Shown in pieces: positions 24,060 through 54,153 of a stretch of 64,000 nucleotides of DNA. The stretch lies in contig JAAXXY010000002.1 of assembly GCA_013334225.1 (NCBI GenBank), positions 2,084 to 66,083 of the forward strand, written 5' to 3'. The notes under the pieces are model-generated. The model saw nothing but the letters and a program-made list of their open reading frames with translations, was not told where the DNA came from and ran no database searches. Within the stretch, counting starts at the first letter, position 1; each line of letters opens with the position of its first letter. The DNA comes from Chlorobiaceae bacterium (GTDB lineage: Bacteria > Bacteroidota > Chlorobiia > Chlorobiales > Chlorobiaceae). The translations under genes and the position numbers were made by a program.

Positions 24060-24079
24060 TCGCTTGCTGAATCGATGCG

Positions 24080-24350: not shown

Positions 24351-24410
24351 AAGGTGTGTTACGGAACAGAAAAGTTTTTAATAAGTACCGTTTGTAACAC
24401 ACCTTTTTTA
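24351..24410 (+). terminator. Strong hairpin with T run ahead of the Rieske gene
   Basis: AAGGTGTGTTAC (24351-24362) and GTAACACACCTT (24394-24405) form a perfect 12-bp stem with a 31-base loop, then more T bases. It lies 340 bases after cyc2 and about 90 before the Rieske start, so it could terminate cyc2 transcripts or act as an attenuator for the downstream operon. Confidence 0.65.
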
Positions 24411-24498
24411 TCTTGAAGGAATGGAGTTTTTATCGTTCCCCCCCTTCCAGATTATCAGGAAAAAGAAAAGGTCTTATTGAAAGAAAAATCAATCCGCT

Positions 24499-25053: not shown

Positions 25054-25087
25054 TCGTTCATGAAAATTATCGAATAGTTGCAAGCAT

Positions 25088-25414: not shown

Positions 25415-25444
25415 TCTGTTAAGAAAATAAAATGATACGGTACA

Positions 25445-26224: not shown

Positions 26225-26245
26225 TCAGACCGGATGTAGTGAATT

Positions 26246-27130: not shown

Positions 27131-27193
27131 TCGGGGATATCATGCAGGAATACAGTTACAGGTCATTCATTAAGTCCAAAAAAACAGTTGAAA

Positions 27194-30249: not shown

Positions 30250-30332
30250 AATTTATCCTGATCATTTTGCGTAGTATATATGGATAATATCAGGATTACT
30301 TTTTTTCGTCAAATTAAAACATGGAGTCAGCA

Positions 30333-30932: not shown

Positions 30933-30957
30933 TGTACTCCCTTACTATCTGATGAAT

Positions 30958-30989
30958 AAAAAGCCCTGTCGTTTGACGGGGCTTTTTTA
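30958..30989 (+). terminator. Rho-independent terminator of the cytochrome operon
   Basis: AAAAGCCCTGTC and GACGGGGCTTTT form a strong stem with a short loop, followed by T bases, about 25 bases after the cupredoxin stop. Confidence 0.9.
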
Positions 30990-31190
30990 TTGAAACGCCA
31001 CCAGATACTCCGTTCATCATAAGAGTTACAAGAACTCCGAGAGTCAATTTTCTGTTCATTTTTACAGTTTGTTACATTTTTCAACTCAAGAGTATTTTTT
31101 GCTCACTTCTGATACGACTGGACAGCAGGGTATCTATAAATAATTTCCTGTTACACTGATCCTTGCAACCGATTTAAAGCGTTTTTGGAG

Positions 31191-32468: not shown

Positions 32469-32708
32469 CTATTATTATTGCATATATCCTGACAATATTG
32501 TTGCAGCACAAACTGAATTACTTATAACAAATATTCATAACTTGAAATATTTTCAATGGTGATTGTTTAAATTTGTTTTTATCTCACTTCCTTTCCGGTT
32601 AAAAAAAAAGCCTGCCGGAAACTGACCGTTGAAGAAATAATATTTTCATCTGTTTTTCTGTATAAAAAAGTTTTTTTGCTTCTCATTCTATTCTATTTAT
32701 AACAGGAC

Positions 32709-38181: not shown

Positions 38182-38767
38182 AAACGAGTGACTGTCAGTT
38201 CCTGACAAGATCAATTATAAAAAGCACTTGAAATCATAAATGCAAGAAATCAGACTTGAGTTTCAAATAAGTTTATATTATCAAGGAGGTTTATTTTTGT
38301 TAATATCACGTCAAAAGAAGCGGCATATTTCGCCGGAGTCAGTCCGACCAAAGCAGAACTATGAGGGTAGTTTGTATCGTAATCAATTCTCCATGGTGTG
38401 ATGATTTCCCTTTTATGTTCAAATGGTCAAAAAACCCTTTGTCATTAAGACATACTTCCCGCACCGAACCGTCCGATTGAATCTGTCAATAAAATTCAGC
38501 AAGTTCAAGCGTTAACAGTAAAATGTTATAAACAAAGAAAATATTAAGGAACATTTAAGTTTCCCTTAATGAAGCTTTAAGGCATTTGTAGTTAAAATAA
38601 ACCATAAGATCAGAGCATGTCTTTTTCTGAGTTCCGTAGTTCCAGGTTGTACCCCCTTTTTTTTTTTACAGTATTTAACAATTGTTATTATCCGAAGGCA
38701 CCATATCCCTTGGTTGATAACAGGCGGTTGTATCTCGGTAACAATTCATCAAACAAACCTGATATAT
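38182..38767. other. Non-coding stretch upstream of the tlpA module
   Basis: About 590 bases. It contains the strong Shine-Dalgarno AAGGAGG (38283-38289), 7 bases ahead of a 34-codon open frame (TTG at 38297), and the palindrome TTAACAATTGTTATT at 38675-38689. No other gene is supported. Confidence 0.4.
38675..38689 (+). promoter_or_regulatory. Candidate operator upstream of module copy 1
   Basis: TTAACAATTGTTATT contains the perfect 12-bp palindrome TAACAATTGTTA, about 80 bases upstream of tlpA. The same 15-mer lies in reverse orientation ahead of module copy 2, and close variants lie ahead of cyc2. Confidence 0.5.
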
Positions 38768-39283
38768 ATGACAATCAAAGCAAGAAAGAATACCAGGGGA
38801 CTGATTGCAGCGGCTCTCTTTTGCCTGAGCATGTACAGCAATGCATTTGCGCTCAATGCGGGAAGTCCGGCACCTGATTTTGAACTGCCGGGACCGAAAG
38901 GGGCCGTCAAACTTTCAAGTACGTCAGGTTCGGTGGTTTATCTCGATTTCTGGGCATCATGGTGCGGGCCGTGCAGGCAGTCGTTTCCCTGGATGAACTC
39001 GATTCAGGAGAAATACCGCTCACAGGGGCTTAAGGTGATAGGAGTGAATCTCGATTCTAAAAATGAAGACGTGCAGAAATTTCTCGCTCAGCTTCCGGCA
39101 CAATTCACGGTAGCCTTCGATGCGAAAGGGGCAACTCCCCAGATCTACGGTGTCAAGGGAATGCCGACCAGTTTTCTTATCGGAAGGGATGGCAGGATTA
39201 TCTCACAGCATTCAGGTTTTAAAGAGAGTGACCGTGAAACCATCGAACAACAGATCAAGACGGCTCTGGAGGCAAAGAAATGA
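38768..39283 (+). CDS. tlpA: TlpA-like thioredoxin-fold protein
   Basis: A 171-residue periplasmic protein with a signal peptide (LIAAALFCLSMYSNAFA) and the active-site CxxC in FWASWCGPCRQSFPW near residue 73, in a thioredoxin fold of about 140 residues (GVKGMPTSFLIGRDGRI holds the cis-Pro). It is the first gene of module copy 1; its stop overlaps the next start (ATGA). It should pass reducing power from the nearby DsbD to a periplasmic client. Complete here; only a 3' fragment remains in copy 2. Confidence 0.93.
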   Translation: MTIKARKNTRGLIAAALFCLSMYSNAFALNAGSPAPDFELPGPKGAVKLSSTSGSVVYLDFWASWCGPCRQSFPWMNSIQEKYRSQGLKVIGVNLDSKNEDVQKFLAQLPAQFTVAFDAKGATPQIYGVKGMPTSFLIGRDGRIISQHSGFKESDRETIEQQIKTALEAKK

Positions 39284-39510
39284 AAAAACATGTTTTGCTC
39301 AATCCTCTGCATGCAATCCTGTTGCTGATCATACTTGCTTTATCAGGCTGTTCGACAGTTCAGCCATGGGAAAAGGGAACGCTGGCCCGGCCGGAAATGA
39401 CCTTCGAGGGTGATCCGCTCGATACGAAATACACTGAGCATATCTACAGCAGTAAAGAGGGGGCATCCGGTGGAGCTGGTGTAGGTGGCGGCGGCTGCGG
39501 TTGCAATTAA
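39280..39510 (+). CDS. DUF4266 lipoprotein with CGC tail, copy 1
   Basis: A 76-residue lipoprotein: the lipobox LALSGC (Cys23) follows a hydrophobic leader, then TVQPWEKGTLARPEMTF, and the chain ends in a Gly-rich stretch with the last residues GGGGCGCN. The Cys-Gly-Cys tail is shared with copy 2 and is the most striking feature; it could bind a metal, be oxidised by the thiol-disulfide partners, or be modified. The start overlaps the tlpA stop. The domain is of unknown function, here next to a DUF3570 barrel. About 90% identical to copy 2. Confidence 0.85.
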   Translation: MKKHVLLNPLHAILLLIILALSGCSTVQPWEKGTLARPEMTFEGDPLDTKYTEHIYSSKEGASGGAGVGGGGCGCN

Positions 39511-39537: not shown

Positions 39538-40656
39538 ATGATATCGATCCCGATAAAAAAAGCGACAGCAACAGGAGCGGTTCTATTCGCTGCAGCACTT
39601 GCCCTGCCTTTCCAGAATTCCGCTTTTGCGGAAGCAGCTCCCGAGCGCAGCATCATTGCCTTCAAATATCTCAACTATCAGGACTACCAGCCCGATAAGG
39701 ACCGGATAGGTGTCAATGCATTCACGGTTATGGGTATGGTGCCGATAGCGGGTCAATGGTCAATAAGCACAACATACACCAATGATTCGGTCTCTGGAGC
39801 CTCTCCCCATCATCATTCAAGCGTTTCAGGCGCGTCGAAAATAAAGGAACACCGGCAGGCTGTCGATCTTGGCCTTACCCGTTATTTTCATCGGGGAAGT
39901 ATAACCGTGGGCGGCAGTTATTCAAGTGAAAACGATTATGTTTCACGCAGCTATTCGGCCCAGGGAAGCATAATGACAGAGGATAAAAATACAACCTTCA
40001 CGCTTGGGGGAAGTTATACTACGGATACGATCAGTCCTTCCAACGACAAGCCCAATTCATACGACAAGAAGGGGGTTGCCGCCCTTGCAGGTGTTACTCA
40101 GGTACTGACAAAGAATGATATCGTACAGTTGAATCTCGGCTATTCAAACGGCTGGGGTTATTTTTCGGATCCCTACAAGCTATATGATGAAAGGCCGGAC
40201 AACCGGAATACCAGGACAATCATGGCCCGTTGGAACCACCATTTCGACGGAAGTGACGGAACAGGCAGGATCTCGTACCGTTACTACACCGATTCATTCG
40301 GGATCGACGCCCATACGATCGGTCTTGAATATGTTCAGCCCCTTTCGAATGGCTGGACGGTGACGCCTTCGGCGAGATACCATTCACAGACGGCGGCATA
40401 CTTCTATCAGCCCGATATGCCTCCTCCCGGGCCGCCGCCAATCCCGCCGATTTCACTTGACCAGCGTCTCTCGGCTTTCGGAGCACTGACACTCGGTATC
40501 AAAGTTGAAAAACAGGTTGCGAAGGATTGGCTGTTCGATGTCAAATACGATTACTATCAGCAGCGTCCTGAATGGTGTCTGACGGGCAAGGGTGATAAAG
40601 GTCTGGATCCGTTCTTCTTCAGAAGCATTCAGGTCGGTGTTTCAAAGAAAATATAG
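39538..40656 (+). CDS. DUF3570 outer-membrane barrel with flavinylation motif, copy 1
   Basis: A 372-residue exported protein with a signal peptide (cleavage near AFAEA) and alternating beta strands typical of an outer-membrane barrel. Residues 83-89 read DSVSGAS and 94-100 read SSVSGAS; the first fits the ApbE target pattern D-x-x-(S/T)-G-A-(S/T), where FMN is joined to the last Ser or Thr. A Pro- and Gly-rich loop (PPPGPPPIPP) lies near residue 300. The second copy has the same motifs at the same place. There is no apbE beside this copy, so modification would rely on the other locus. Function unknown. Confidence 0.82.
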   Translation: MISIPIKKATATGAVLFAAALALPFQNSAFAEAAPERSIIAFKYLNYQDYQPDKDRIGVNAFTVMGMVPIAGQWSISTTYTNDSVSGASPHHHSSVSGASKIKEHRQAVDLGLTRYFHRGSITVGGSYSSENDYVSRSYSAQGSIMTEDKNTTFTLGGSYTTDTISPSNDKPNSYDKKGVAALAGVTQVLTKNDIVQLNLGYSNGWGYFSDPYKLYDERPDNRNTRTIMARWNHHFDGSDGTGRISYRYYTDSFGIDAHTIGLEYVQPLSNGWTVTPSARYHSQTAAYFYQPDMPPPGPPPIPPISLDQRLSAFGALTLGIKVEKQVAKDWLFDVKYDYYQQRPEWCLTGKGDKGLDPFFFRSIQVGVSKKI

Positions 40657-40818
40657 CTGCTCCCCCGTGTAGCTATACACCGCCAAGCTCATTTCTTTCC
40701 ATGCCGCCGGGCTTGCCGAGAAGACCTTGCGTCATGGAAAGCTTACGGGATTAACCCGCTGGCAGTTCTTGTCCATTTTTTTTCGAACTGATGATAATAA
40801 ATAACAATAGCGATTAAA

Positions 40819-42687
40819 CACAGAAACTGAGCAGCCATGACAACCATGAGGGAGAAGAATATGTATTGCAGGGGAACGGTGATGACGATAACCGTAATGA
40901 TCATGCTTCTGCTGCTGCAATTCGGCAGCGCGTTCGGAGCGGACTTTCTCGATCCGGAACAGGCATTCAGGGTGAAGGCGGAACTGGGAGCGAACCGCTC
41001 TGTTACGCTGCACTGGGATATCGCCAAAGGGTACAAGCTCTACCGTGACCGGGTGAAGGTCAGTGTCGGGAAGGGCAGTGCGAAGTTGCAGGAGCCGGTA
41101 TTGCCGAAAGGCATCACGATAACGGACCCGTCAACGAATGAAAAATTCGAGATCTATCACGACCGTCTCGATGTCGCTGTTCCGGTGGCAAAAGCGGATG
41201 GCAGGTTCACCCTGAACGTCGAATATCAGGGGTGTGCGGAGGACGGGCTCTGCTACCCCCCGATAACGAAATCGTACGAGATCGATCCTGGCGTTCCTGG
41301 GGTGCTTGCCGCGGCAGGCGAACAGCAAACCGCTCCTGGCACGAGTGTTGCGGATGCGGCAAAAGCGGTCACTCCACCGGCAGCGGTATCGAGCGGTAAT
41401 ACAAATGTAAAAGGCGGGGGGGAAAACGATCTCTCCCTGGCGAAAGCGACGCTCGCGGGCGGGAGCCTCTGGAAAATCTCGATAGCGTTCCTGTTCTTCG
41501 GTCTGCTGCTGTCGTTCACCCCGTGTGTACTTCCGATGATCCCGATCCTCTCGTCGATCATCGTTGGCGAGGGTGAGGTCACCCGCAGGCGCAGTTTTCT
41601 GATGGCCGTAGCATACTGCCTCGGCATGTCGCTGGTCTATACGTCGCTTGGCGTCGCGGCTGGCCTTGCCGGAGAGGGGCTTTCGGGTGCCTTGCAGAAA
41701 CCCTGGGTGCTTGTGCTGTTTGCCCTGCTGCTCGTGCTGCTTTCGCTCTCGATGTTCGATGTCTACCAGCTGCAGATGCCTGCAGCGATCCAGAACCGGC
41801 TGAACCAGGCATCTGGAAAACAGAAGGGGGGCAAATTCATCGGAGTGTTCGTGATGGGTTCGCTGTCGGCTCTTATCGTAGGCCCCTGTGTGGCGGCGCC
41901 GCTTGCCGGGACGCTTGTCTATATCAGTCAGACGAAAGATGTGCTGATCGGCGGACTTGCCCTGTTTTCGATGGCGTTGGGTATGAGCGTTCCGCTTCTT
42001 CTTGTTGGACTTTCAGCGGGGAGCCTGCTTCCGAAAGCCGGAGGGTGGATGATCGGGGTGAAATATGTGTTCGGCCTGCTCCTGATAGCGGTAGCGGTCT
42101 GGATGGTGTCCCCTGTGCTGCCTGTGCAGGGCGTGATGCTGGTGTGGGGAGCATTTGCGATACTGTGCGCGGTATTTCTGAAAGTGTTCGAAAGCCATGC
42201 GGGCAAGTCCACGATCGGTCAGCGTTTCGGGAAGGCATTGGGACTGGTTCTGTTTGTGATCGGCATAGCGGAACTGGTTGGTGCGGCATCAGGGGGGAGC
42301 AATGCCCTGGAACCGCTCGGGCATCTGCAGGCGGGGAGAGGATCGGCCGGTGACAAGGCGCAGGGAGAGGGGATCGCGTTCAAAAGGATCAGCACCCCGG
42401 CAGAGCTCGACAAGGCGCTGCAGTCGGCTGACAGGCCGGTGATGCTGGACTTCTATGCGGACTGGTGTGTGGCGTGCAAGGAGATGGAGAAATTCACGCT
42501 GCATGATCCGAAGGTGAAGGCGGAGCTTGGCAAGCTGACGCTGCTGCAGGTCGATGTGACGTCGAACAGCGAAGATGCGCGGGCATTGATGAAACGGTTC
42601 GGGCTGTTCGGGCCCCCGGGCATCATATTCTTTGACAGGACAGGCAGGGAGATCCCTGACAGCAGGGTCATCGGCGTCATGGAGGCG
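40819..42687. repeat. Near-identical dsbD repeat, copy 1
   Basis: This 1869-base stretch matches 54142-56010 with a constant offset of 13,323 bases. I found two mismatches, at 42597 and 42657, both near the 3' end. It begins with CACAGAAACTGA, the last 12 bases (three codons plus stop) of apbE in the other copy, although apbE itself is absent here. Protein ends after the repeat differ but remain similar. Confidence 0.9.
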
Positions 42688-42735
42688 CCCCATTTTCTTA
42701 GCCATGTAGCAAAGACTTCGACCGGACAGATATAA
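40861..42735 (+). CDS. dsbD: Thiol:disulfide interchange protein DsbD, copy 1
   Basis: A 624-residue protein that carries electrons from cytoplasmic thioredoxin across the membrane to periplasmic thiol proteins. It has a signal peptide, an N-terminal domain with YQGCAEDGLCYPP (two redox Cys near residue 135), an eight-helix core with FTPCVLPMIP and VGPCVAAPLAG (the two membrane Cys), and a C-terminal thioredoxin-like domain with FYADWCVACKEME. The ATG at 40861 has GGGAG upstream; the ATG at 40837 is an alternative. It ends in a PHFLSHVAKTSTGQI tail that differs from copy 2. Confidence 0.93.
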   Translation: MYCRGTVMTITVMIMLLLLQFGSAFGADFLDPEQAFRVKAELGANRSVTLHWDIAKGYKLYRDRVKVSVGKGSAKLQEPVLPKGITITDPSTNEKFEIYHDRLDVAVPVAKADGRFTLNVEYQGCAEDGLCYPPITKSYEIDPGVPGVLAAAGEQQTAPGTSVADAAKAVTPPAAVSSGNTNVKGGGENDLSLAKATLAGGSLWKISIAFLFFGLLLSFTPCVLPMIPILSSIIVGEGEVTRRRSFLMAVAYCLGMSLVYTSLGVAAGLAGEGLSGALQKPWVLVLFALLLVLLSLSMFDVYQLQMPAAIQNRLNQASGKQKGGKFIGVFVMGSLSALIVGPCVAAPLAGTLVYISQTKDVLIGGLALFSMALGMSVPLLLVGLSAGSLLPKAGGWMIGVKYVFGLLLIAVAVWMVSPVLPVQGVMLVWGAFAILCAVFLKVFESHAGKSTIGQRFGKALGLVLFVIGIAELVGAASGGSNALEPLGHLQAGRGSAGDKAQGEGIAFKRISTPAELDKALQSADRPVMLDFYADWCVACKEMEKFTLHDPKVKAELGKLTLLQVDVTSNSEDARALMKRFGLFGPPGIIFFDRTGREIPDSRVIGVMEAPHFLSHVAKTSTGQI

Positions 42736-42767
42736 AGACAATCACTTAATGACAAGGAGAGAACATT

Positions 42768-45251
42768 ATGGCTACGTACAATTACACTGGCACAACCGGA
42801 GCGGATTCAGTCAGCTTGCTCAATTTCTACAACGACAAGCCTCCAGGCGGGGATGTCATCAATATCAATGGTCTTGACGGGAACGATACGTTTTACCTGA
42901 ACAGCAACGGTAAAACCTCTTACAATACACCATTTCAAAGCGCCGGGTTCACTGTTTCTCCGGTAAACGCGAGTGGTGTAATAGTTGTCACTGGTGCAAG
43001 TACCGGCGGAACAAAATTCACGTTCAATCTGACCAGTGTCGAAACACTGGTATTCGCTGACAAGACTGTAACCCTGTCGTATCTTTCAGCGGATACCATC
43101 GCTCCGACGGTGACCACCTTCAGTCCGGCCGATGCCGCGACCGGCATAGCTATAGGAAGCAATATCGTGCTGACGTTCAGCGAGGCTATCCAGAAAGGCA
43201 CAACCGGCACGATAACCATTCACAGCGGTTCTGCAACGGGAACGGTCGTTGAAAGTTATGCGGCCACGAATACAACGAACCTGACGGTTTCCGGCAATAC
43301 GCTGACAATCAATCCGACGGCCAATCTTGCAAATGGGACGCAGTATTTCGTGACGATCGATTCCGGAGCGGTCAAGGACCTTGCCGGCAACAATTATGCT
43401 GGCACGACAACGTATGACTTTACCACGCTACCTGATACCATCGCTCCGACAGTGAGCACCTTCAGTCCGGCCGATGCTGCGACCGGTGTAGCTATAGGAA
43501 GCAATATCGTGCTGACGTTCAGTGAAGCTATCCAGAAAGGCACAACCGGCACGATAACCATTCACAGCGGTTCTGCAACGGGAACGGTCGTTGAAAGTTA
43601 TGCGGCCACGAATACGACGAACCTGACGGTTTCCGGCAATACGCTTACAATCAACCCGACGGCCGATCTTGCATACGGGACGCAGTATTTCGTCACGATC
43701 GATCCGGGTGCGGTCAAGGACCTTGCCGGCAACAATTACACAGGCACGACGACCTATGACTTTACCACGGCGGCAGCGCCCGATACCACTGCTCCGACAG
43801 TGACCACCTACAGTCCGGCCGATGCCGCAACCGGCATAGCTATAGGAAGCAATATCGTGCTGACGTTCAGCGAGGCTATCCAGAAAGGCACAACCGGCAC
43901 GATAGCCATTCACAGCGGCTCTGCAGGCGGTACGGTCGTTGAAAGCTATGCGGCTGCGAATACTGCGAACCTTTCGGTGTCCGGCAATACGCTGACGATC
44001 AATCCGACGGCCGATCTTGCAAACGGGACGCAGTATTTCGTCACGATCGATCCGGGTGCGGTCAAGGATCTTGCAGGCAACAATTATGCAGGCACGACGA
44101 CCTATGACTTTACCACGCTACCTGATACCATCGCTCCGACAGTGAGCACCTTCAGTCCGGCCGATGCCGCAACCGGCGTAGCTATAGGAAGCAATATCGT
44201 GCTGACGTTCAGTGAAGCGATACAGCAGGGTACGACGGGGACGATAGCCATTCACAGCGGATCGGCAGGCGGTGCGGTTCTTGAAAGTTATGCGGCCACG
44301 AATACGTCGAACCTGTCGGTGTCCGGCAATACGCTGACGATCAACCCGACGGCCAGTCTTGCATACGGGACGCAGTATTTCGTCACGATCGATTCTGGTG
44401 CGGTCAAGGATCTTGCGGGCAACAACTATGCAGGTACCACGACATATGATTTTACTACGGCAGCAGCGCCCGATACCACCGCTCCGACAGTGACCACCTT
44501 CAGTCCGGCCGATGCCGCAACCGGCATAGCTATAGGAAGCAATATCGTGCTGACGTTCAGCGAGGCGATCCAGCAGGGCGCGACGGGGACGATAGCCATT
44601 CACAGCGGGTCGGCAGGCGGTGCGGTTCTTGAAAGCTATGCAGCCACGAACACGACGAACCTGTCTGTGTCCGGCAATACGCTGACGATCAACCCGACGT
44701 CCACTCTGGCATACGGGACGCAGTATTTCGTGACGATCGATTCGGGATCGATCAGGGATGTCGCGGGCAACAACTATGCAGGCACGACGACCTATGACTT
44801 TACCACGCTCCCAGACACCGCCCCCCCGACAGTGACGACCTTCAGTCCGTCCGATGCGGCGACCGGAATCGATGTCGGAAGCAATATCGTACTGACATTC
44901 AGTGAAGCGATACAGAAAGGAGCAGGCAAGATTGAAATCCACAGCGGTTCAGCATCCGGAACCCTTCTTGAAAGCTATGATGCTGCTTCCAACACAGCAA
45001 ACCTTTCGGTATCCGGCAATACACTGACGATCAATCCGACGGCCAATCTTGCGAACAGCACCCATTACTTTGTAGTCCTGGGCAACGCAAGCATCAAGGA
45101 CCTTGCCGGGAACAGTTATGCCGGTGCATCCGACTATGATTTCACCACGGCCGATCCTTACGCGGCAAGCGGTTCATCCGGCGGCGGAAGCTCAGTAGCC
45201 ATACTTGCAGGAGTTGGAGCACTGGGATTGCTCGCTTTTGTGGTTTTATAA
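42768..45251 (+). CDS. Giant Ig-like repeat protein, probable type I secretion substrate
   Basis: An 827-residue acidic, Thr/Ser/Asn-rich protein without a signal peptide. The first 100 residues contain a Ca-binding-like turn (LDGNDTFY) and a beta domain. Six Ig-like (Big_5/SbsA-type) repeats of about 114 residues follow, each starting APTVTTFSPADAATGIAIG-like and holding SNIVLTFSEAI and AGNNYAGTTTYDFTT. The end is a Gly/Ser linker (SGSSGGGSS) plus 18 hydrophobic residues. The T1SS genes follow directly, so it should be exported by that system to the cell surface as an adhesin or layer protein; inference. Confidence 0.85.
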   Translation: MATYNYTGTTGADSVSLLNFYNDKPPGGDVININGLDGNDTFYLNSNGKTSYNTPFQSAGFTVSPVNASGVIVVTGASTGGTKFTFNLTSVETLVFADKTVTLSYLSADTIAPTVTTFSPADAATGIAIGSNIVLTFSEAIQKGTTGTITIHSGSATGTVVESYAATNTTNLTVSGNTLTINPTANLANGTQYFVTIDSGAVKDLAGNNYAGTTTYDFTTLPDTIAPTVSTFSPADAATGVAIGSNIVLTFSEAIQKGTTGTITIHSGSATGTVVESYAATNTTNLTVSGNTLTINPTADLAYGTQYFVTIDPGAVKDLAGNNYTGTTTYDFTTAAAPDTTAPTVTTYSPADAATGIAIGSNIVLTFSEAIQKGTTGTIAIHSGSAGGTVVESYAAANTANLSVSGNTLTINPTADLANGTQYFVTIDPGAVKDLAGNNYAGTTTYDFTTLPDTIAPTVSTFSPADAATGVAIGSNIVLTFSEAIQQGTTGTIAIHSGSAGGAVLESYAATNTSNLSVSGNTLTINPTASLAYGTQYFVTIDSGAVKDLAGNNYAGTTTYDFTTAAAPDTTAPTVTTFSPADAATGIAIGSNIVLTFSEAIQQGATGTIAIHSGSAGGAVLESYAATNTTNLSVSGNTLTINPTSTLAYGTQYFVTIDSGSIRDVAGNNYAGTTTYDFTTLPDTAPPTVTTFSPSDAATGIDVGSNIVLTFSEAIQKGAGKIEIHSGSASGTLLESYDAASNTANLSVSGNTLTINPTANLANSTHYFVVLGNASIKDLAGNSYAGASDYDFTTADPYAASGSSGGGSSVAILAGVGALGLLAFVVL
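43092..45155. repeat. Six tandem Ig-like repeat units
   Basis: Units start at 43092, 43434, 43782, 44124, 44472 and 44814, so the spacing alternates 342, 348, 342, 348, 342 bases. The alternation comes from linkers LPDTIAP and AAAPDTTAP, showing that a two-unit block of 690 bases was copied. DNA identity between units is high. Confidence 0.9.
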
Positions 45252-45258
45252 CATGCCC

Positions 45259-45333
45259 AACCGCTCTCTCATTGCAACAATGTCTTGATGTATGTGAACG
45301 AGCACCTGATTACCACCGGGAGAGCGGTTTTTT
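45259..45333 (+). terminator. Terminator between substrate and secretion genes
   Basis: AACCGCTCTC (45259-45268) and GAGAGCGGTT (45320-45329) pair perfectly over 10 bp with a 51-base loop, then T bases. It ends the substrate transcript, 31 bases before the first ABC gene, or lets fewer transcripts read into the export genes. Confidence 0.7.
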
Positions 45334-45363
45334 AAGATTTTTTAATGACAGCATGAGTGATCT

Positions 45364-47067
45364 ATGACAACTGGTAAAATGAACTTTCCGCTGCGCGGCA
45401 AAGTTGCCGCTCTTTATCCCTATTTCAGGCATGTATGTGTCTTCAGTGTTGTTGTAAACGTGCTTGTTCTGGTTCCAAGTGCCTATATGATGCAGGTTTA
45501 TGAGCGCGTTACCAGTTCCCGGAGTTTTATGACGCTTCTGATGCTGACCATTCTCGTTATCGGCCTTTATGTCATTCTCGAAGCACTGGAGTGGGTTCGG
45601 AGGCAGGTGATGCTGCATGCCGGAGCAGAGCTTGAAAGAAATGTTCGCGAACAGGTGTTTTCCGTTGTTTTCACGGCAAGACTCCAGGGACACTCTGCAA
45701 CCGGGCTTCAGCCGCTGCATGACCTGAAGATCATCCGCGAGTTTTTTCCTTCTCATGCCATGCAGGCGATCATCGATGCCCCACTCGCTCTGCTCGTTCT
45801 CGGGCTGATTTTCCTGATGAACCCGTTCCTCGGCTGGTTTGCGGTAGCTGGAGCACTTGCACAATTCGGGATTGGATTTATTAACGAGCGCAACATCCGG
45901 GGACCGCTCATGGAAGCGCACCGGAATTCGACGGCAGCCCGCAACTATGCGGAAAGTGCAATACGAAAATCGCAGGTGATAGAATCGATGGGTATGCACG
46001 AAGATATTCATGGTCGATGGATGAATTTCCAGCAGGAGTTTCTTCTGCATCAGGCAAAGGCTTCGGATCTTGCCGGAACAAATGCCGTCGTATCGAAGCT
46101 GGTGCAAAGCCTGACGAGCTCGCTTCTGCTCGGACTTGGCTGCTGGCTGACACTCCGGGGCGAGCTGCACGGTGCCGGCATGATCGTCGCATCCATTCTT
46201 GGCGGGCGAGTTCTTTCTCCTCTCGTTCAGATAATCGGAAACTGGCGCCAGGTGGAAATTGCCTGTGAGGCGTTCAATCGTCTTGAAGGTCTTATGACCG
46301 CATATCCTTCGAAGAGCAAGGGGATGCCTCTGCCGGCACCTGATGGGGCGTTGTCCGTCGAAAGTTTGTTTACAGGAGCCCCGGGAAGTTCAACGTATAT
46401 CATCAGAGGTGTTTCTTTCAGGCTTCCGGCAGGATCATCACTTGCCATCGTAGGGCCTTCCGCTTCAGGTAAAACCGTTCTTTCACGGTTGCTTGCAGGA
46501 ATCTGGCCGGCGATGCAAGGCAAGGTCCGGCTGGACGGAAATGATATCTACCGATGTGACAGGGAGGAGCTCGGGCAGTATATCGGCTATCTGCCGCAGA
46601 ATGTCGAGCTGCTTGAAGGAACCATCTCGGAAAATATTTCCCGATTCGGAGAGCCTGATTCGAAAAAAGTCCGTGAAGCATGCAGGATGGCCGGGCTGGA
46701 AGTTCTGATAGATCAGTTTCCCCAGGGTTATGAAACAATCATAGGCGATGACGGTTCATTTCTGTCAGGGGGTGAGCGCCAGCGTGTAGCCCTGGCTCGG
46801 GCGGTTTACGGTATGCCGAAGCTTGTCGTGCTCGACGAGCCTGATTCAAGTCTCGACGAACAGGGGATTGCGGCCCTCATCAGCACCGTAAAACGTCTGA
46901 AAGCCGCCGGTTCGACGGTTATCGTCATTACTCACAGAGTCAACATTCTCGTTGCGATAGAGCATCTGCTCGTTCTTGTCGATGGGCAGGTTCAGCAGTT
47001 CGGCTCCTGCAGGGAGGTGCTTGCCATGCTGCAGTCTCCACCTGTGATCCTCCAGTCGAAGAATTAA
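45364..47067 (+). CDS. Type I secretion ABC transporter, PrtD-like, first
   Basis: A 567-residue half-transporter: about six membrane helices in the first 320 residues, then an ATPase with Walker A GPSASGKT near residue 363, the signature LSGGERQRVALARA near 468 and Walker B VVLDEPDSSLDEQG near 488. There is no N-terminal peptidase domain. In type I systems it forms the energised inner-membrane part. It is followed 25 bases later by a second similar gene, so the two may form a heterodimer. Its substrate is probably the upstream repeat protein. Confidence 0.93.
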   Translation: MTTGKMNFPLRGKVAALYPYFRHVCVFSVVVNVLVLVPSAYMMQVYERVTSSRSFMTLLMLTILVIGLYVILEALEWVRRQVMLHAGAELERNVREQVFSVVFTARLQGHSATGLQPLHDLKIIREFFPSHAMQAIIDAPLALLVLGLIFLMNPFLGWFAVAGALAQFGIGFINERNIRGPLMEAHRNSTAARNYAESAIRKSQVIESMGMHEDIHGRWMNFQQEFLLHQAKASDLAGTNAVVSKLVQSLTSSLLLGLGCWLTLRGELHGAGMIVASILGGRVLSPLVQIIGNWRQVEIACEAFNRLEGLMTAYPSKSKGMPLPAPDGALSVESLFTGAPGSSTYIIRGVSFRLPAGSSLAIVGPSASGKTVLSRLLAGIWPAMQGKVRLDGNDIYRCDREELGQYIGYLPQNVELLEGTISENISRFGEPDSKKVREACRMAGLEVLIDQFPQGYETIIGDDGSFLSGGERQRVALARAVYGMPKLVVLDEPDSSLDEQGIAALISTVKRLKAAGSTVIVITHRVNILVAIEHLLVLVDGQVQQFGSCREVLAMLQSPPVILQSKN

Positions 47068-47092
47068 CACGTACAGGAAAAAAGGACCCTTC

Positions 47093-48799
47093 ATGAAACC
47101 TGATTTTTTCAATCGCAGTGTTCTTGCACGTCAACTCCTGGCGTTCCGCAAAGAGTTTTTCTGGGCTGGTGTTTTCAGTCTCTTCGTCAATGTGCTCATG
47201 CTTTCACCGACGATTTACATGCTCCAGCTGTACGGCCGTGTCATGAAGAGCGGAAGCGAGCTGACGCTGCTTGTGATCACCCTGTTCCTTGTTTTGTTTT
47301 GTGGTGTTATGGCTGTAGCGGAATGGCTCCGCTCGGTACTTCTTGTCCGCACGGGGGTCAGGCTCGATGATTGCCTGAATTCGAAGGTTTTCAGGGCGAG
47401 TTTCGATGCCTACCTGAAGAATTCACCCTACCGTGTGGCAGATGCTTTCAGTGATCTCGGCAATATTCGTCTGTTTCTCACGGCAAACGGCATCTTTGCG
47501 TTATTCGATACTCCATGGACGCCTGTTTATATCGCGGTGATCTTTCTGCTCAATCCCTTTCTCGGCTGGCTGTCCGTTCTGTTCGCAATCATTCAGCTTG
47601 GTCTGGCTTTCCAGAGCAGCCGTATGAGTATCGGGAAGATCGAAAGCGCTGCATGCGCGGAACATGAGAGTGATCGTTTTTTACAGGGCAAACTGCACAA
47701 TATAGAGCCTGTTTATGCGATGGGCATGACAAAAAACGTCAGGAACAGATGGTATCGGCTTCATGATATTTCACTTTCCGCTGCAGGGGCCTCGTTTGAG
47801 AGCCAGAACCGCCAGCAGTCCATTGCAAAGTTTGTGCGTTACAGCATGCAGTCTTTGACGCTTGCCGCAGGAGCCCTGATGGTGATCGATGGGCGGATGT
47901 CTGCCGGTTCCATGATCGCCACCAATATACTGATGTCAAAAGCCCTTCAGCCGCTCGATCTCATGGTGGCGGCATGGAAGCCTTTTATGCAGGCGCGAAC
48001 GGCGTTTCTGCGACTCGAACGTTTACTCGAAGAGTTTCCTGAACGTAAAGCAGAGCCGATACGCCGTGATCCGGCTGGAGAGATAAGGCTCGAAGGTGTT
48101 ACGGCCCTTGCCGGTAACCGTACAACACCTGTTCTCAAAGATATTCATGCGGTGTTTTCTCCGGGTGAGATCGTTGCCGTACTTGGTCCGACCGGATCCG
48201 GAAAATCCACCCTTGCCCGATGCATCGTCGGAATCTGGCCGGAACGTAAGGGGCGTGTGCTGATAGACGGCAAACCGGTGGAAAGCTGGCAGAGGAGTGA
48301 GCTCGGGCCCCATATCGGTTATCTCCCGCAGGATATCGAGCTGTTCGAAGGTTCGATTGCTGAAAACATTGCGCGTTTTTCAAGAATTGATTCCGGAAAA
48401 GTGATTGAAGCGGCCAAAAAAGCGGGAATCCATGAGATGATCGTCCGTTTTTCCCTCGGCTATGATACCTGGATAGGCGAGGATGGCGGAACCCTTTCGG
48501 GAGGACAGCGCCAGAGGCTTGGGCTTGCCCGTGCACTTTATGGGAACCCCTCTCTCATTGTGCTCGACGAACCGAACGCCAACCTCGATGAAAACGGAGA
48601 CCGTTCTCTGATCAAGGCTCTCAGGGAGTTGAGGGCTGCAGGAAAAACGGTGATTCTCGTAACACACCGTCCTGGAGTGCTCGAAGTGGCCGACAGGAAA
48701 GTGTTCATGCAGTCGGGACGTATCGTCGGGACCGGTGAACCGGAAACAGTCATACCGTCTTTGCGTTCTCCGGTTTACGAAGCAGCTCTGGAACAGTGA
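47093..48799 (+). CDS. Type I secretion ABC transporter, PrtD-like, second
   Basis: A 568-residue half-transporter related to the one before it but clearly diverged (an old pair). The membrane part covers about residues 1-320; Walker A GPTGSGKST near 365, signature LSGGQRQRLGLARA near 469 and Walker B VLDEPNANLDENG complete the ATPase. All catalytic motifs are intact in both genes, so both may hydrolyse ATP. The gap to the next gene is 33 bases. Most type I systems have a single such gene, so the pair is unusual. Confidence 0.93.
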   Translation: MKPDFFNRSVLARQLLAFRKEFFWAGVFSLFVNVLMLSPTIYMLQLYGRVMKSGSELTLLVITLFLVLFCGVMAVAEWLRSVLLVRTGVRLDDCLNSKVFRASFDAYLKNSPYRVADAFSDLGNIRLFLTANGIFALFDTPWTPVYIAVIFLLNPFLGWLSVLFAIIQLGLAFQSSRMSIGKIESAACAEHESDRFLQGKLHNIEPVYAMGMTKNVRNRWYRLHDISLSAAGASFESQNRQQSIAKFVRYSMQSLTLAAGALMVIDGRMSAGSMIATNILMSKALQPLDLMVAAWKPFMQARTAFLRLERLLEEFPERKAEPIRRDPAGEIRLEGVTALAGNRTTPVLKDIHAVFSPGEIVAVLGPTGSGKSTLARCIVGIWPERKGRVLIDGKPVESWQRSELGPHIGYLPQDIELFEGSIAENIARFSRIDSGKVIEAAKKAGIHEMIVRFSLGYDTWIGEDGGTLSGGQRQRLGLARALYGNPSLIVLDEPNANLDENGDRSLIKALRELRAAGKTVILVTHRPGVLEVADRKVFMQSGRIVGTGEPETVIPSLRSPVYEAALEQ

Positions 48800-48832
48800 C
48801 AATAACAGGAAAAACCGTTTAAACGTACAATC

Positions 48833-50014
48833 ATGCCCATTCTTGAAGCTTTAGCGGGAAGGATTCCCCTTTCTGCCGTAAAACAAACCACGGACAAAAG
48901 AAAACGTTACGCTGATACAGAAAGTCCCGTCCGGCTTGGTATTCTGATCCTGCTTGTCGGATTCGGCGGATTCCTTCTCTGGTCGGCTTTCGCTCCACTC
49001 GACGAAGGTGTTCCCTGTCAGGGTATCGTAAATCTGGCGACAAAAAGAAAAGTGGTTGAAAATCTGCGCGGAGGCAGCCTCGAAAGAATCTTTGTAAAAG
49101 AGGGGCAGATGGTTGAAAAGGACGAACTGCTTATGAAAATTGACAACGGGATGGCAAAAGCCCGTTATGATGAGGTTCATCAGCATTATCTCGGTATGAG
49201 GGCGACAGCGGACCGGCTGCTTGCCGAAATACGCGGGGCAGGCTCGATTTCGTTTCATAAGGATCTTGTGAGCGATTCCGACCGGCTGCTTGCCGAACAG
49301 CATATGGAAAGTCAGAGACAGCTCTTTCTTTCCCGCCGCATGACTCTCGGAATTCTTCAGGAGCAGCTTGCGGGTATTTCATCGCTTGTAAAAGAGGGGT
49401 ATGCACCTCTGAACCAGAAAAGAGAGATGGAACTGAAAATTGCCGAATTCAAATCTGCAACGGCAACCCAGCTTGCCCAGGTTCAGCTTGAAGTCGAGGC
49501 CGATGCTGAAAAAACGAAAACTCTTGCAAAAGAGCTCGCCGATACCGAGGTGCGTTCACCGGTATCAGGCCAGGTTGTAGGTCTGCAGGTGCAGACCGTC
49601 GGGGCAGTGATTCAGCCCGGGCAGAAAATTATGGATATCGTACCGAACCATGAAGGACTTCTTGTCGATGTGAAAGTTTCCCCTCACCTGATCGACAGCG
49701 TTCGCAAGGGAGACGAGGTTGATATCGGCTTTTTTTCTTTCGTCCGTACTCCTCAGCTTGTTGTGAAGGGAAAAGTTGAATCGGTATCGAAAGACATTGT
49801 TTCCGATCCTCAGGTAAACCCTGGAGTGCCTGGAATGTCCTATTACCTTGCCCGTATTTCAGTAACGCCTGATGGTCTCAAGTCTCTTGGAAACCGTCAG
49901 ATGCAGCCCGGAATGCCGGTTCAGGTCATTGTCAAAACAGGTGAACGATCACTTCTGACCTATCTGATCGATCCGCTGATCAGGAAGGTCATGGTTTCGA
50001 TGAAGGAGGAATAA
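48833..50014 (+). CDS. HlyD-family membrane fusion protein
   Basis: A 393-residue periplasmic adaptor with one N-terminal membrane helix (about residues 31-50, LGILILLVGFGGFLLWSAFA) and the barrel-sandwich halves around a coiled-coil hairpin (residues about 90-215). The second half begins DTEVRSPVSGQVVGLQVQ, typical of the lipoyl-like part, and ends in a beta barrel. It links the ABC pair to the outer-membrane TolC-like channel. Length is short of HlyD (about 478) but normal for this PrtE-like group. Confidence 0.93.
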   Translation: MPILEALAGRIPLSAVKQTTDKRKRYADTESPVRLGILILLVGFGGFLLWSAFAPLDEGVPCQGIVNLATKRKVVENLRGGSLERIFVKEGQMVEKDELLMKIDNGMAKARYDEVHQHYLGMRATADRLLAEIRGAGSISFHKDLVSDSDRLLAEQHMESQRQLFLSRRMTLGILQEQLAGISSLVKEGYAPLNQKREMELKIAEFKSATATQLAQVQLEVEADAEKTKTLAKELADTEVRSPVSGQVVGLQVQTVGAVIQPGQKIMDIVPNHEGLLVDVKVSPHLIDSVRKGDEVDIGFFSFVRTPQLVVKGKVESVSKDIVSDPQVNPGVPGMSYYLARISVTPDGLKSLGNRQMQPGMPVQVIVKTGERSLLTYLIDPLIRKVMVSMKEE

Positions 50015-50022
50015 GATTTCGC

Positions 50023-51387
50023 ATGTGTTTACAAAGAAATATGATAAGAGTGTGTGTCATGAAAATACTGGTAGCTGTATCGTTTCTCCTGTTTTTTACA
50101 TTTTCGCAGGATGTTTCCGCCGTGTCCCTCGATCTGTCCGGGGCATACAGAAAGGCATTGGACTATGATGCGCGGGTCCGTATTGCTCATGCCGATAATG
50201 ATGCTGACAAAGAGGAGATTGCCAAGGCGCGTGCATTATTGAGGCCCAATATCCGGGGAAATGTCGGTCGGGGACGGAACGTCACGCAATACGGCTATCA
50301 TGGGGTTTTATATACACCCGACTATTACAATACATCAAATACCGGCGTCACTCTCCGTCAGTCATTGCTGAATATTCCGAATTTTATCGGTTATACCCAG
50401 GCGAAGTCGATTGTGGCAAAAAGCGATATCGACATGCAGAATGAAGAGGCTGGTCTGATTGTGAGAATAACCGATGCCTACTGCAATGTATTGTATGCCG
50501 AGGAAAACCTGGCTGTTATTCAGGAACAGGTGAAAGCATCAAAGGAACAGCTACAGCAGGCAAAGCACCGGTATGATAAAGGCTTTGGTACCATTACCGA
50601 GATCAGTGAGACCCAGGCGGTTTATAATATGGCACTTGCAGAGTGTCTCGATATGGTCAACAACCTTGAATTCAGTCGCCGTACGCTGGAAAATTTAATC
50701 GGTGAATATCCTGAAAATCTCTGCAAACTCAATCCTGAAAAACTGGTTGTAAAAAATCCGTTGTCAGATCAGGTACAATCCTGGATAAGCCTTGCGATGT
50801 CCGGTAACGGGGAGATATCTTCGGCGCGCCAGAATATGGAGATTGCCCGTAAGGAGATAGAAAAACAGAAAGCGATACGTTATCCGACGCTTGATCTCGT
50901 GGCTGGTAGAAATTTGACGGAAAGTGAAAACAACTATTCGATCGGTGCGACCTACAATACCTATTCGCTCAGTCTGCAGATGAGCGTCCCGATTTATTCA
51001 GGGGGATTTGTGAGTTCTTCCGTGCGTCAGGCAAAGGCCCGCTGGATAAAGGCAGGGGAGGAACTCAGATTGCAGGAACGCGGAGTGCAATCGGATGTTC
51101 GGAAATATTACAACAATGTTACAGGCACTATCGCCCAGATACAGGCATACGAGCAGGCGGTAAAGTCACAGGAAACCGCTTTGACCGGAACAAGAAAAGG
51201 ATTTGAAGCGGGATTGCGCAGCAATATGGATGTGCTCGATGCCCAGCAGAAGCTCTTTTCTGCCAGGCGCAATCTTGCCAAGTCCCGTTATCAGTATATT
51301 ATCAATCTGCTCATGCTCAGGCAAAGCGCAGGTGTTTTATCAGCTCGCGATATTGAAGAAGTCAACAACTGGCTCGGCAAAGTTTGA
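50023..51387 (+). CDS. tolC: TolC-family outer-membrane channel protein
   Basis: An about 454-residue protein with an N-terminal signal region (MKILVAVSFLLFFTFSQ) whose true start is uncertain; AAGGAGG lies 13 bases before the first ATG at 50023, and internal ATGs at 50041 and 50059 are alternatives. The mature chain has the repeated helical TolC halves (EENLAVIQEQVKASKEQL and KYYNNVTGTIAQIQAYEQA). It completes the type I secretion set: ABC pair, adaptor and channel. Genes of module copy 2 follow after a non-coding gap. Confidence 0.92.
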   Translation: MCLQRNMIRVCVMKILVAVSFLLFFTFSQDVSAVSLDLSGAYRKALDYDARVRIAHADNDADKEEIAKARALLRPNIRGNVGRGRNVTQYGYHGVLYTPDYYNTSNTGVTLRQSLLNIPNFIGYTQAKSIVAKSDIDMQNEEAGLIVRITDAYCNVLYAEENLAVIQEQVKASKEQLQQAKHRYDKGFGTITEISETQAVYNMALAECLDMVNNLEFSRRTLENLIGEYPENLCKLNPEKLVVKNPLSDQVQSWISLAMSGNGEISSARQNMEIARKEIEKQKAIRYPTLDLVAGRNLTESENNYSIGATYNTYSLSLQMSVPIYSGGFVSSSVRQAKARWIKAGEELRLQERGVQSDVRKYYNNVTGTIAQIQAYEQAVKSQETALTGTRKGFEAGLRSNMDVLDAQQKLFSARRNLAKSRYQYIINLLMLRQSAGVLSARDIEEVNNWLGKV

Positions 51388-51420
51388 ACAAACCTGGTGA
51401 TTTTGTTTTTTGGAATCAGA

Positions 51421-51435
51421 AATAACAATTGTTAA
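51421..51435 (-). promoter_or_regulatory. Candidate operator upstream of module copy 2
   Basis: On the minus strand this is TTAACAATTGTTATT, the same 15-mer as at 38675-38689 but inverted; the flanking bases CAGTAT are also shared in that orientation. Confidence 0.5.
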
Positions 51436-51661
51436 AATACTGAGTGCTTTTTGCCGCATAGCATCCCTCATTCATGTTGAACGATCGTTCTTTACCGATA
51501 TATGTATGATTTTCCAGGGTGATCCCTTGATTGCCGGCTGGATTTGTGCTTTCCCTCAAATCGCTCTCAACGATTATTTACAGACTTTCAGAAGGCAGGA
51601 TGATGCCTGTATGAAAGGGCGACGGCATTTGGCAAACAGGTGCGTATGTATTTGCAGTTTT

Positions 51662-51775
51662 CAGTTTTCTTATCGGAAGGGATGGCAGGATTATCTCACA
51701 GCATTCAGGTTTTAAAGAGAGTGACCGTGAAACCCTCGAACAACAGATCAAGACGGCTCTGGAGGCAAAGAAATG
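51662..51775 (+). pseudogene. tlpA: 3' remnant of tlpA in module copy 2
   Basis: About 114 bases that match the end of the copy-1 tlpA (39169-39282) almost exactly (one mismatch seen, CATC versus CCTC) and stop at the same codon. The upstream two thirds, including the CxxC active site, are gone, so no redox protein can be made. The fragment leads straight into the second DUF4266 gene. The near identity means the homology is recent even though this copy is broken. Confidence 0.9.
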
Positions 51776-52012
51776 AATAAACATGTATTACGTGTTTTGC
51801 TCAATACTCTGCATGCAATCCAGTTGCTGATCATGCTTGCTTTATCTGGCTGTTTGACAGTTCAGCCCTGGGAAAAGGGCACCCTCGCCCGGCCGGAAAT
51901 GACCTTTGAGGGTGATCCGCTCGATACGAAATCCACCGAACATATTTACAGCAGCAAGGAAGCTGCATCCGGCGGTGCAGGAGTGGGAGGGGGCGGATGC
52001 GGATGTAATTAA
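51773..52012 (+). CDS. DUF4266 lipoprotein with CGC tail, copy 2
   Basis: A 79-residue lipoprotein with lipobox LALSGC and the same C-terminal GGGGCGCN as copy 1, about 90% identical apart from three extra residues in the leader. The Cys-Gly-Cys end is conserved, so it is probably functional. It sits before a DUF3570 barrel and apbE, keeping the gene order of copy 1. Confidence 0.85.
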   Translation: MNKHVLRVLLNTLHAIQLLIMLALSGCLTVQPWEKGTLARPEMTFEGDPLDTKSTEHIYSSKEAASGGAGVGGGGCGCN

Positions 52013-52033
52013 TCGAATGTTAACACCCGACAC

Positions 52034-53233
52034 ATGATGACAATACCGGCATTGAAAGCGAAATCCGCTCTTTTCGGCACGGCGATTCTCGGTGTTGCAA
52101 TGGCATTGCCGACGATAAATTCTGCCTGTGCCGACAGTGCTCCTGAAAATGGAATTGTCAGCCTGAAATATCTCAATTACAGGGACTGGCAGACAGGCGA
52201 CACTCCCCTGACTGCCGGAATGACGAGAGAGAGAATAGGAGTTCAGGCCCTGTCGCTCATGTGTATGGTCCCTGTAGCAGGAGAGTGGTCGCTGAGTGTG
52301 AACCTGCTTGATGATACCGTTACCGGAGCTTCTCCGGCTTATCATTCGGCTGGTTTCCCATCGGCTCTATCGGGTGCTTCGGCCCTCGATCTCCGGCATG
52401 CGGGAGATGCGCAGCTTACCCGCTATTTTTCGAGAGGTTCCGTTACAGGCGGTCTCAGTTATTCAAAGGAGAATGATTACATTTCCCGTGGTATCTCGCT
52501 TCAGGGAAGCTGGTCGACCGAAGACAGGAATACAACCTGTATGATCGGTGCAAGCGTCAATGACGACAGTATCGACCTGAGGGGTGACAATGTCGTTGCA
52601 TCGAAAAAACAGAAAGATCCTGAAAAGAAGATGGCCTATGCTGCTCTTTTCGGTCTGACAAAAGTGCTTGCGAAAGCCGATATCGTTCAGTTCAATTTAG
52701 GGTACACCATTGGAAACGGTTATTTTACCGATCCTTTCAAGGATCCGGACATCCGGCCGCGAGGACGTAACAGTGCAACATTCATGACCAGGTGTAATCA
52801 CCATTTCGACAGCACTGACGGAACCATGCACCTTTCGTACCGGTACTATCAGGATACCTGGGGTATCAGAGCCCACACGCTTGGCGCGGAATATGTTCAG
52901 CCGCTCCCGAAAGGGTGGACGATTACACCACAGATGAGGTTCTATTCGCAAAGCGAAGCTGATTTTTATATCGCTTCCGGTCCGGACCCCACTAAACCGG
53001 TTCCGCCACCGGCAGGCGCCGTTTATTATTCGGAGGACCAGCGGCTCTCCTCATTCGGAGCGATAAGTTTCGGTGTCAAGGTCAGCAAGCAGTTGTCCGC
53101 CCACTGGCTGATGGATGTAAAGTATGAGAGGTATGAACAACGGGGGGAATGGAGCCTATTTGGTAAAGGTGATCCGGGAGTGGCTTCATTCAATGCGAAA
53201 GACGTTCAACTGGGTTTGTCGAGGACGTTTTAA
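52034..53233 (+). CDS. DUF3570 outer-membrane barrel with flavinylation motif, copy 2
   Basis: A 399-residue exported barrel protein, well diverged from copy 1 in its strands but alike in plan: signal peptide (cleavage near ACADS), motif 1 DTVTGAS at residues 94-100 and motif 2 SALSGAS at 110-116. Motif 1 fits the D-x-x-(S/T)-G-A-(S/T) site modified by ApbE and lies in the same relative place as in copy 1 (52313-52333). The apbE gene follows 32 bases downstream. A Pro-rich loop lies near residue 320. Its function is unknown; flavin carriage is inference. Confidence 0.82.
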   Translation: MMTIPALKAKSALFGTAILGVAMALPTINSACADSAPENGIVSLKYLNYRDWQTGDTPLTAGMTRERIGVQALSLMCMVPVAGEWSLSVNLLDDTVTGASPAYHSAGFPSALSGASALDLRHAGDAQLTRYFSRGSVTGGLSYSKENDYISRGISLQGSWSTEDRNTTCMIGASVNDDSIDLRGDNVVASKKQKDPEKKMAYAALFGLTKVLAKADIVQFNLGYTIGNGYFTDPFKDPDIRPRGRNSATFMTRCNHHFDSTDGTMHLSYRYYQDTWGIRAHTLGAEYVQPLPKGWTITPQMRFYSQSEADFYIASGPDPTKPVPPPAGAVYYSEDQRLSSFGAISFGVKVSKQLSAHWLMDVKYERYEQRGEWSLFGKGDPGVASFNAKDVQLGLSRTF

Positions 53234-53265: not shown

Positions 53266-54153
53266 ATGAATATTTTACGTTTCGGATTTGAAGCCATGTC
53301 AAGCGGTTGCGAGATAGTCATGGCGTATGAAAATAAAAAGAGCGGTGAGGCAATTGCAGAACTTGCTGTTCATGAAATAGCAAGAATCGAGATGAAATAC
53401 TCCAGATATCTTCCCCAGAGTATTGTATCGAAGATCAATGCCGCGGCAGGCATTGAAAGAGTGGAGTGCGATGAAGAGACGTTAACGCTTTTGCGTTATG
53501 CCGATGCATTTTACAGGAGCAGCGGAGGTTTGTTCGATATCACTTCCGGTGTTCTGCGCAAGGCATGGGATTTTAAAAAGGCATCAGTGCCCGAAGCGGA
53601 TGTGCTTGCACCGTTCCTTGGACTTGTAGGATGGGAATATGTGGAACGTCAGGATAAAACCGTTTATCTTCCTGTGACCGGCATGCAGGTGGATTTCGGA
53701 GGATTCGGAAAAGAGTATGCTGCGGATTGCAGTGCGGCTGTTCTGTTGAACCATGGTGTCCGCTCGGGTTATGTCAACCTTGGAGGAGATATACGTGTTG
53801 TCGGGCCAAGACCGGACGGGAGCCCGTGGGTGATCGGTATCCAGGACCCGCGGAACGAGAAACAAACGATCGCCTCCATTCCTCTCTACTCCGGTGCGCT
53901 TGCCACCAGCGGTGATTATGAACGGTATTTTGAATCGGATGGCCAACGCTACTGCCACATCCTCAATCCGGGGACGGGTATGCCGGTAAACTTCTGGCAA
54001 TCGGTCACCATACTTGCGGCAACGACCTTGTTGGCGGGAAGCCGGTCGACGATTGCGATGCTGAAGGAGGAGGATGGGCTTCATTATCTTTCTCAAACGG
54101 GAATGAAATATCTTGCGGTTGACAGCAAGGGAGCAATTCATCACAGAAACTGA
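53266..54153 (+). CDS. apbE: FAD:protein FMN transferase ApbE
   Basis: A 295-residue enzyme that joins FMN from FAD to a Ser or Thr of target proteins. The fold is recognised by FGFEAMSSGCEIVMA at the start, VDFGGFGKEYAAD near residue 145, SGDYERYF, and HILNPGTGMP (the metal/FAD-binding motif) near residue 225. No signal peptide or lipobox precedes the fold, and no upstream in-frame start would add one. Most ApbE are exported, so this one may act in the cytoplasm before export of its target. Its neighbour DUF3570 has a fitting target motif. Confidence 0.93.
   Translation: MNILRFGFEAMSSGCEIVMAYENKKSGEAIAELAVHEIARIEMKYSRYLPQSIVSKINAAAGIERVECDEETLTLLRYADAFYRSSGGLFDITSGVLRKAWDFKKASVPEADVLAPFLGLVGWEYVERQDKTVYLPVTGMQVDFGGFGKEYAADCSAAVLLNHGVRSGYVNLGGDIRVVGPRPDGSPWVIGIQDPRNEKQTIASIPLYSGALATSGDYERYFESDGQRYCHILNPGTGMPVNFWQSVTILAATTLLAGSRSTIAMLKEEDGLHYLSQTGMKYLAVDSKGAIHHRN

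Follow-up and report, generated by a model that had tools for sequence, protein, structure and literature searches.

Where in the cell, and at what stage, would the two DUF3570 proteins encoded at this locus receive covalent flavin? The window, that is, the whole stretch of 64,000 nt analysed here (Chlorobiaceae bacterium, assembly GCA_013334225.1, contig JAAXXY010000002.1, positions 2,084–66,083, forward strand), contains two gene cassettes, each with a DUF3570 gene (barrels 1 and 2), and one gene for the flavinylating enzyme ApbE. We propose, with a probability of about 0.6, that both DUF3570 genes encode 16-strand outer-membrane barrels, each bearing two flavin mononucleotide (FMN) groups attached to Ser residues by ApbE, and that the flavins are loaded before export.

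The four flavinylation motifs reported in the preliminary description are all present and in frame, within the regions NDSVSGASPHHHSSVSGASK of barrel 1 and DDTVTGASPAYHSAGFPSALSGASA of barrel 2 (Table 1), and the gene beside barrel 2 is indeed apbE. As claimed there, motif 1 fits the ApbE target D-x-x-[S/T]-G-A-[S/T] in both barrels. The Asp of this full form occurs only in motif 1 of each pair, motif 2 being the short form [S/T]GA[S/T]. In shuffled mature proteins, two short motifs fall within 25 residues of each other by chance with P = 0.0001 for barrel 1 and 0.00045 for barrel 2. The barrels had been described as differing over most of their length; this is incorrect, as they are 49% identical in an end-to-end alignment, and hence cannot be proteins unrelated apart from the motif. 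Motif sharing between these two alone is therefore weak evidence. The strong evidence is conservation among relatives.

A genome scan yielded 79 loci, from which 88 DUF3570 proteins were aligned with the two window barrels; these 90 sequences come mostly from the Chlorobiaceae and were picked by similarity to the query. Motif 1 occupies the same columns in 90 of 90. The second motif is present in 79, following motif 1 in loop L2 in 50 proteins and preceding it in loop L1 in 29; no protein has it in both loops, and 11 have it in neither. Six of these 11 come close in L2, three with AGAS, two with SSAS and one with SKAS. On a tree made without the two loops, the L1/L2 state requires at least two changes, and the window barrels belong to two separate, well-supported clades. 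The genome denoted G025 has the second motif in L1, unlike the window barrels, where it is in L2. In another genome (G038:C45, 32295–40488, loci L060 and L034), four DUF3570 genes lie within about 8 kb, apbE adjoins the last of them, and one of the four proteins has three [S/T]GA[S/T] motifs.

Paired ApbE sites in DUF3570 proteins have been known since 2021, when Méheust et al. described two conserved [S/T]GA[S/T] motifs in 228 ApbE-associated proteins of this family (PMC8238504). The DUF3570 protein of Chlorobium luteolum was flavinylated by its cognate ApbE, as seen on an ultraviolet gel, and flavinylation was lost only when both serines were changed (PMC8238504). Thus the part of the preliminary description that predicted ApbE flavinylation of DUF3570 is right, although already demonstrated for this homologue at both motifs. 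The 2021 constructs were truncated and expressed in E. coli, where the DUF3570 protein was found in the pellet yet was flavinylated (PMC8238504); therefore, loading of an unexported barrel is possible.

An AlphaFold2 model of barrel 1, based on the alignment of 90 sequences, is confident (mean predicted local distance difference test score, pLDDT, 92.5; predicted template modelling score, pTM, 0.86). It has 16 strands, with turns of 2–5 residues on one side and loops of up to 29 residues on the opposite side. The motif 1 Ser comes directly after strand 3, at its outer end, and the flexible part of L2 holds motif 2. The architecture agrees with that of a second model, built for a relative of the L1 type, where the second motif is in the disordered loop 23–50, which links strands 1 and 2 on the same side. 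In both models the barrel is closed and its strand number even, with short turns on one side and long loops on the other. A fold search returned only general porins with a template modelling score of about 0.5 (OmpG, CymA, FadL), giving no functional lead, and the barrel profile found no relative among solved structures. The long-loop side of outer-membrane barrels is usually the one at the cell surface. Both flavin sites lie in the models on the long-loop side, and therefore, by this rule, we infer that they are extracellular. As to the earlier suggestion that a barrel with covalent FMN would be a redox channel or a surface electron carrier, the barrel fold is supported by the confident model, and the putative redox role fits the predicted topology.

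The motif was also expected to follow apbE. In the Chlorobiales ApbE does accompany DUF3570, and motif 1, as said, is invariant in the alignment. Among 98 genomes, 65 have both ApbE and DUF3570, 12 have only ApbE, four only DUF3570, and 17 neither (p = 3.7e-8, not corrected for kinship). Ten of the 12 genomes with ApbE and no DUF3570 carry an FMN_bind gene, and DUF3570 is present in all 64 genomes that have DUF4266. In the window genome (listed completeness 99.97, contamination 6.92), a single ApbE accompanies two DUF3570 genes, and FMN_bind is absent. A DUF3570 match with no ApbE found was observed in G043, G019, G074 and G078; at least G074 is incomplete, the match in G078 is only a fragment, and these four cases may reflect missing data.

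The window ApbE retains the active-site Ser and His, as its TSGDY and CHILNP segments align with FmnB Ser257 and His273, and the Thr four residues after Gly258 is also kept in this alignment. The conserved active-site and metal-binding Asp is replaced by Gly258. The same position is Gly in 60 of 60 ApbEs that form one clade, and Asp in all 42 others, E. coli included. In the E. coli enzyme, this Asp and the Thr correspond to D280 and T284, both of which bind metal 1 (PMC4767422). The mapping of Gly258 to FmnB Asp301 is independent of the E. coli control sequence.

Moreover, the ApbEs of this clade, encoded beside DUF3570 in the Chlorobiaceae and Betaproteobacteria (the latter represented by four loci), start right at the domain (M-n-i-f-r-f-g-f-e-a-M), with no signal peptide. 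Fewer than 15 open codons precede the domain in 36 of the 60 clade members, and an upstream hydrophobic stretch is seen in only four of the 60. The open frame upstream of the window apbE encodes no hydrophobic stretch, and a signal peptide with a lipobox is absent. In contrast, the ApbEs beside FMN_bind genes of the same order have a hydrophobic stretch with a lipobox-like Cys, that is, a lipoprotein signal, and keep the Asp. Genome G025 holds one ApbE of each kind. The contrast between the two kinds suggests that the flavin is attached in the cytoplasm, prior to export.

Outside the Chlorobiales, we considered 31 loci, 29 from other Bacteroidota and two from a related family (f2); apbE was found within the fetched flanks of DUF3570 at 29 of them. 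The expectation that such apbE-adjacent proteins would carry the SGAS pair holds only in part. Most have no pair in this spelling, but in 25 of the 31 there is an [S/T][G/S]A[S/T] pair within 40 residues, often 13 apart (0.06 expected by shuffling), with SSAS or TSAS in one or both positions and at the same place as the SGAS pair. We predict that SSAS is flavinylated too, which would make it a new spelling of the ApbE target. In another ApbE substrate, a Gly-to-Ala change reduced flavinylation to about half (PMC12052999). The ApbEs at these loci keep the Asp, and some have a signal peptide; the sample does not separate motif spelling from ApbE type or from lineage, and no causal link is claimed. 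Two genomes of a neighbouring family in the order (L144 and L145) combine the SSAS pair with a signal-bearing, Asp-bearing ApbE, unlike the Chlorobiaceae. DUF4266 was considered as the true ApbE substrate where DUF3570 lacks SGAS, and rejected: the EGAS or EAAS preceding GGGCGCN does not match [S/T]GA[S/T], and the DUF3570 partner retains the SSAS pair.

These observations can be assembled into the following scheme. The single signal-less ApbE would modify the barrel precursor in the cytoplasm, where flavin adenine dinucleotide (FAD) is available. The precursor would then be exported via Sec and inserted in the outer membrane, the modelled topology placing both flavins on the long-loop, presumably surface, side. 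Electrons might pass from DsbD to the TlpA-like thioredoxin, then to the CxC lipoprotein DUF4266, to the barrel flavins and finally to surface acceptors, no haem being involved. For this last step the gene neighbourhood is observed, and the suggested flow largely follows the proposal of Méheust et al. for DsbD systems. We infer surface electron transfer; as for its likeliest use, our guess is metal reduction for uptake.

Several points weigh against this scheme. Covalent FMN has been demonstrated only for the C. luteolum homologue, and for the window barrels the flavins, their location and the electron transfer are predictions. As to the C-terminal aromatic signature of barrel insertion, the end of barrel 2 (...SRTF) agrees with the family consensus F, and that of barrel 1 (...SKKI) is not aromatic. 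Signal peptides were judged by hydropathy and open upstream codons instead of SignalP. The Asp-to-Gly replacement could make the window ApbE weak or altered; the enzyme tested in 2021 probably belongs to the Gly-bearing clade. Finally, two flexible loops at the surface are a long way from the periplasm, which makes an unbroken electron route across the barrel conjectural.

The loss of the Asp raises the possibility that SGAS is just a structural feature of the barrel rim, not flavinylated here, the Gly-clade ApbE having lost or changed its activity. Indeed, the missing residue binds metal in the E. coli enzyme (PMC4767422) and belongs to the three conserved active-site residues, and it is Gly throughout the clade. 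Nevertheless we consider this improbable, given that in C. luteolum the published enzyme–substrate pair works at both motifs (PMC8238504), the window ApbE has lost neither the other two triad residues, Ser and His, nor the metal-binding Thr, ApbE and DUF3570 co-occur, and the second motif persists while switching loops. Nor is it likely that the flavins are added in the periplasm, by this ApbE exported via an unrecognised route or by another, exported one. While almost every ApbE studied so far works outside the cytoplasm (PMC12052999), and some Bacteroidota encode a signal-bearing ApbE next to DUF3570, a second ApbE was not found in the window genome, in many relatives the open frame ahead of the domain is too short for a signal peptide, and the signals of the FMN_bind-adjacent ApbEs from the same order are normal.

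An alternative that concerns the role of the flavins has a minor but appreciable probability: rather than export electrons over a long range, they may act in reductive repair or sensing at the outer membrane, where they would hold thiols or metals in the reduced state. The recognised donors, DsbD, thioredoxin and the CxC of DUF4266, are all thiol-redox proteins, but sites on the long-loop side are easier to reconcile with exposure at the surface than with a role confined to the periplasm. We retain two-flavin barrels loaded before export as the preferred description of the window genes. A broader proposal is more tentative, and we would put it somewhat below even odds. It states that a separate ApbE branch, devoid of both the export signal and the Asp, loads FMN in the cytoplasm onto a barrel prior to its export, producing a haem-free two-flavin barrel at the surface, and that the SSAS pair of the Bacteroidota is a new spelling of the ApbE target.

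Table 1. Features of the two DUF3570 cassettes, in window coordinates.
Feature	Coordinates	Strand	Basis
Thioredoxin-like (TlpA type, CGPC), cassette 1	38714..39283	+	Redoxin/AhpC-TSA, E 3e-25
DUF4266 small lipoprotein, C-terminal GGGCGCN (CxC), cassette 1	39280..39510	+	PF14086, E 3.6e-24
DUF3570 barrel 1, 372 residues	39538..40656	+	PF12094, E 3e-68; AlphaFold2 model
Barrel 1 motif 1, DSVSGAS; predicted FMN-Ser codon 39802-39804	39784..39804	+	in frame; conserved in 90/90
Barrel 1 motif 2, SSVSGAS, flexible loop L2; predicted FMN-Ser codon 39835-39837	39817..39837	+	in frame; model residues 65-69 with pLDDT < 50
DsbD copy 1	40837..42735	+	DsbD_TM, E 1e-94
Truncated copy of the thioredoxin gene 3' end	51662..51789	+	98% to 39169-39296
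DUF4266 small lipoprotein, cassette 2	51773..52012	+	PF14086, E 3e-23
DUF3570 barrel 2, 399 residues	52034..53233	+	PF12094, E 4e-66
Barrel 2 motif 1, DTVTGAS	52313..52333	+	in frame; alignment
Barrel 2 motif 2, SALSGAS	52361..52381	+	in frame; alignment
ApbE, 295 residues, no signal peptide	53266..54153	+	PF02424, E 4e-73
ApbE Gly258 codon, Gly in place of the active-site and metal-binding Asp (FmnB Asp301, V. cholerae Asp285)	54037..54039	+	pairwise alignment with 7esa
DsbD copy 2, near-identical to copy 1 save the last ~15 codons	54160..56052	+	profile match and comparison

The profile scores are far above the cut-offs, being 231 and 224 bits for barrels 1 and 2 (PF12094, cut-off 25) and 246.6 bits for ApbE (PF02424, cut-off 25.6). 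The two cassettes combined contain ApbE, DUF4266, the thioredoxin-like protein and DsbD; cassette 1 has no apbE, and cassette 2 has no whole thioredoxin gene. The remnant of the latter, upstream of the second DUF4266 gene, comprises only the 3' part, the 5' part being missing. The dsbD copies have two differences in about 1,850 positions, and then diverge abruptly over the last 15 or so codons. A recent duplication of the whole cassette is ruled out for the barrels, which fall in two old paralogue clades; despite this, dsbD and the thioredoxin 3' end are near-identical between the cassettes. Near-identity of dsbD beside barrels as divergent as these looks like recombination or gene conversion. 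The region between the cassettes (42768–51387) encodes a protein whose six Big_5 Ig-like repeats have a spacing of 342/348 nt, together with two ABC transporters, HlyD and a TolC-like protein that make up a type I secretion set. Further upstream (22728–33728) are electron-transfer and metal genes, encoding a Rieske protein, cytochrome b, a cupredoxin-like protein, an Nramp transporter, an 873-residue protein with several cytochrome c domains and, on the minus strand, a multihaem c protein.

In porin–cytochrome conduits of the MtrCAB type, a barrel and its redox partners move electrons across the outer membrane. The window system is similar in that a barrel with redox partners could do the same, but flavins and thiols would take the place of haems, there is no cytochrome in the cassettes, and the conduit role here is conjectural. 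The closest described system is the cluster of DsbD, thioredoxin-like protein, DUF4266, DUF3570 and ApbE, known from C. luteolum, a member of the same family as the window organism (PMC8238504). It shares with the window the protein family, the two [S/T]GA[S/T] motifs, ApbE, the DUF4266 CxC, the thioredoxin-like protein and DsbD, whereas in the window old paralogues make up two cassettes that share one apbE. A cytosolic ApbE with no signal peptide is known from Klebsiella (PMC12052999); there the substrate, a soluble fumarate reductase, stays in the cytoplasm, whereas in the window it would be an exported outer-membrane protein.

The word "barrel" is absent from the main text of PMC8238504, which is also silent on any placement at the surface, on the lack of an ApbE signal and on the replacement of Asp by Gly. 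The term DUF3570 occurs neither in the 2024 follow-up (PMC11334425) nor in the 2025 ApbE review (PMC12052999). For DUF3570, DUF4266 and PF12094, only PMC8238504 turned up in the open-licence literature; reports may exist elsewhere. Relative to this literature, the apparently new elements are the 16-strand barrel model with sites on the long-loop side, the invariance of motif 1 and the alternation of the second motif between L1 and L2, the window gene counts, the signal-less Gly clade of ApbE with the cytoplasmic flavinylation that it suggests, and the SSAS and mixed pairs of the Bacteroidota.

Beyond the known paired sites, what would matter is the order of events, that is, flavin loading versus export. 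Loading by ApbE before export would require a covalent flavin to get through both Sec and BAM, and it would remove the problem of how FAD is supplied beyond the cytoplasm. With barrel flavins facing the surface, green-sulfur bacteria and their neighbours would be able to exchange electrons with the outside without haem.

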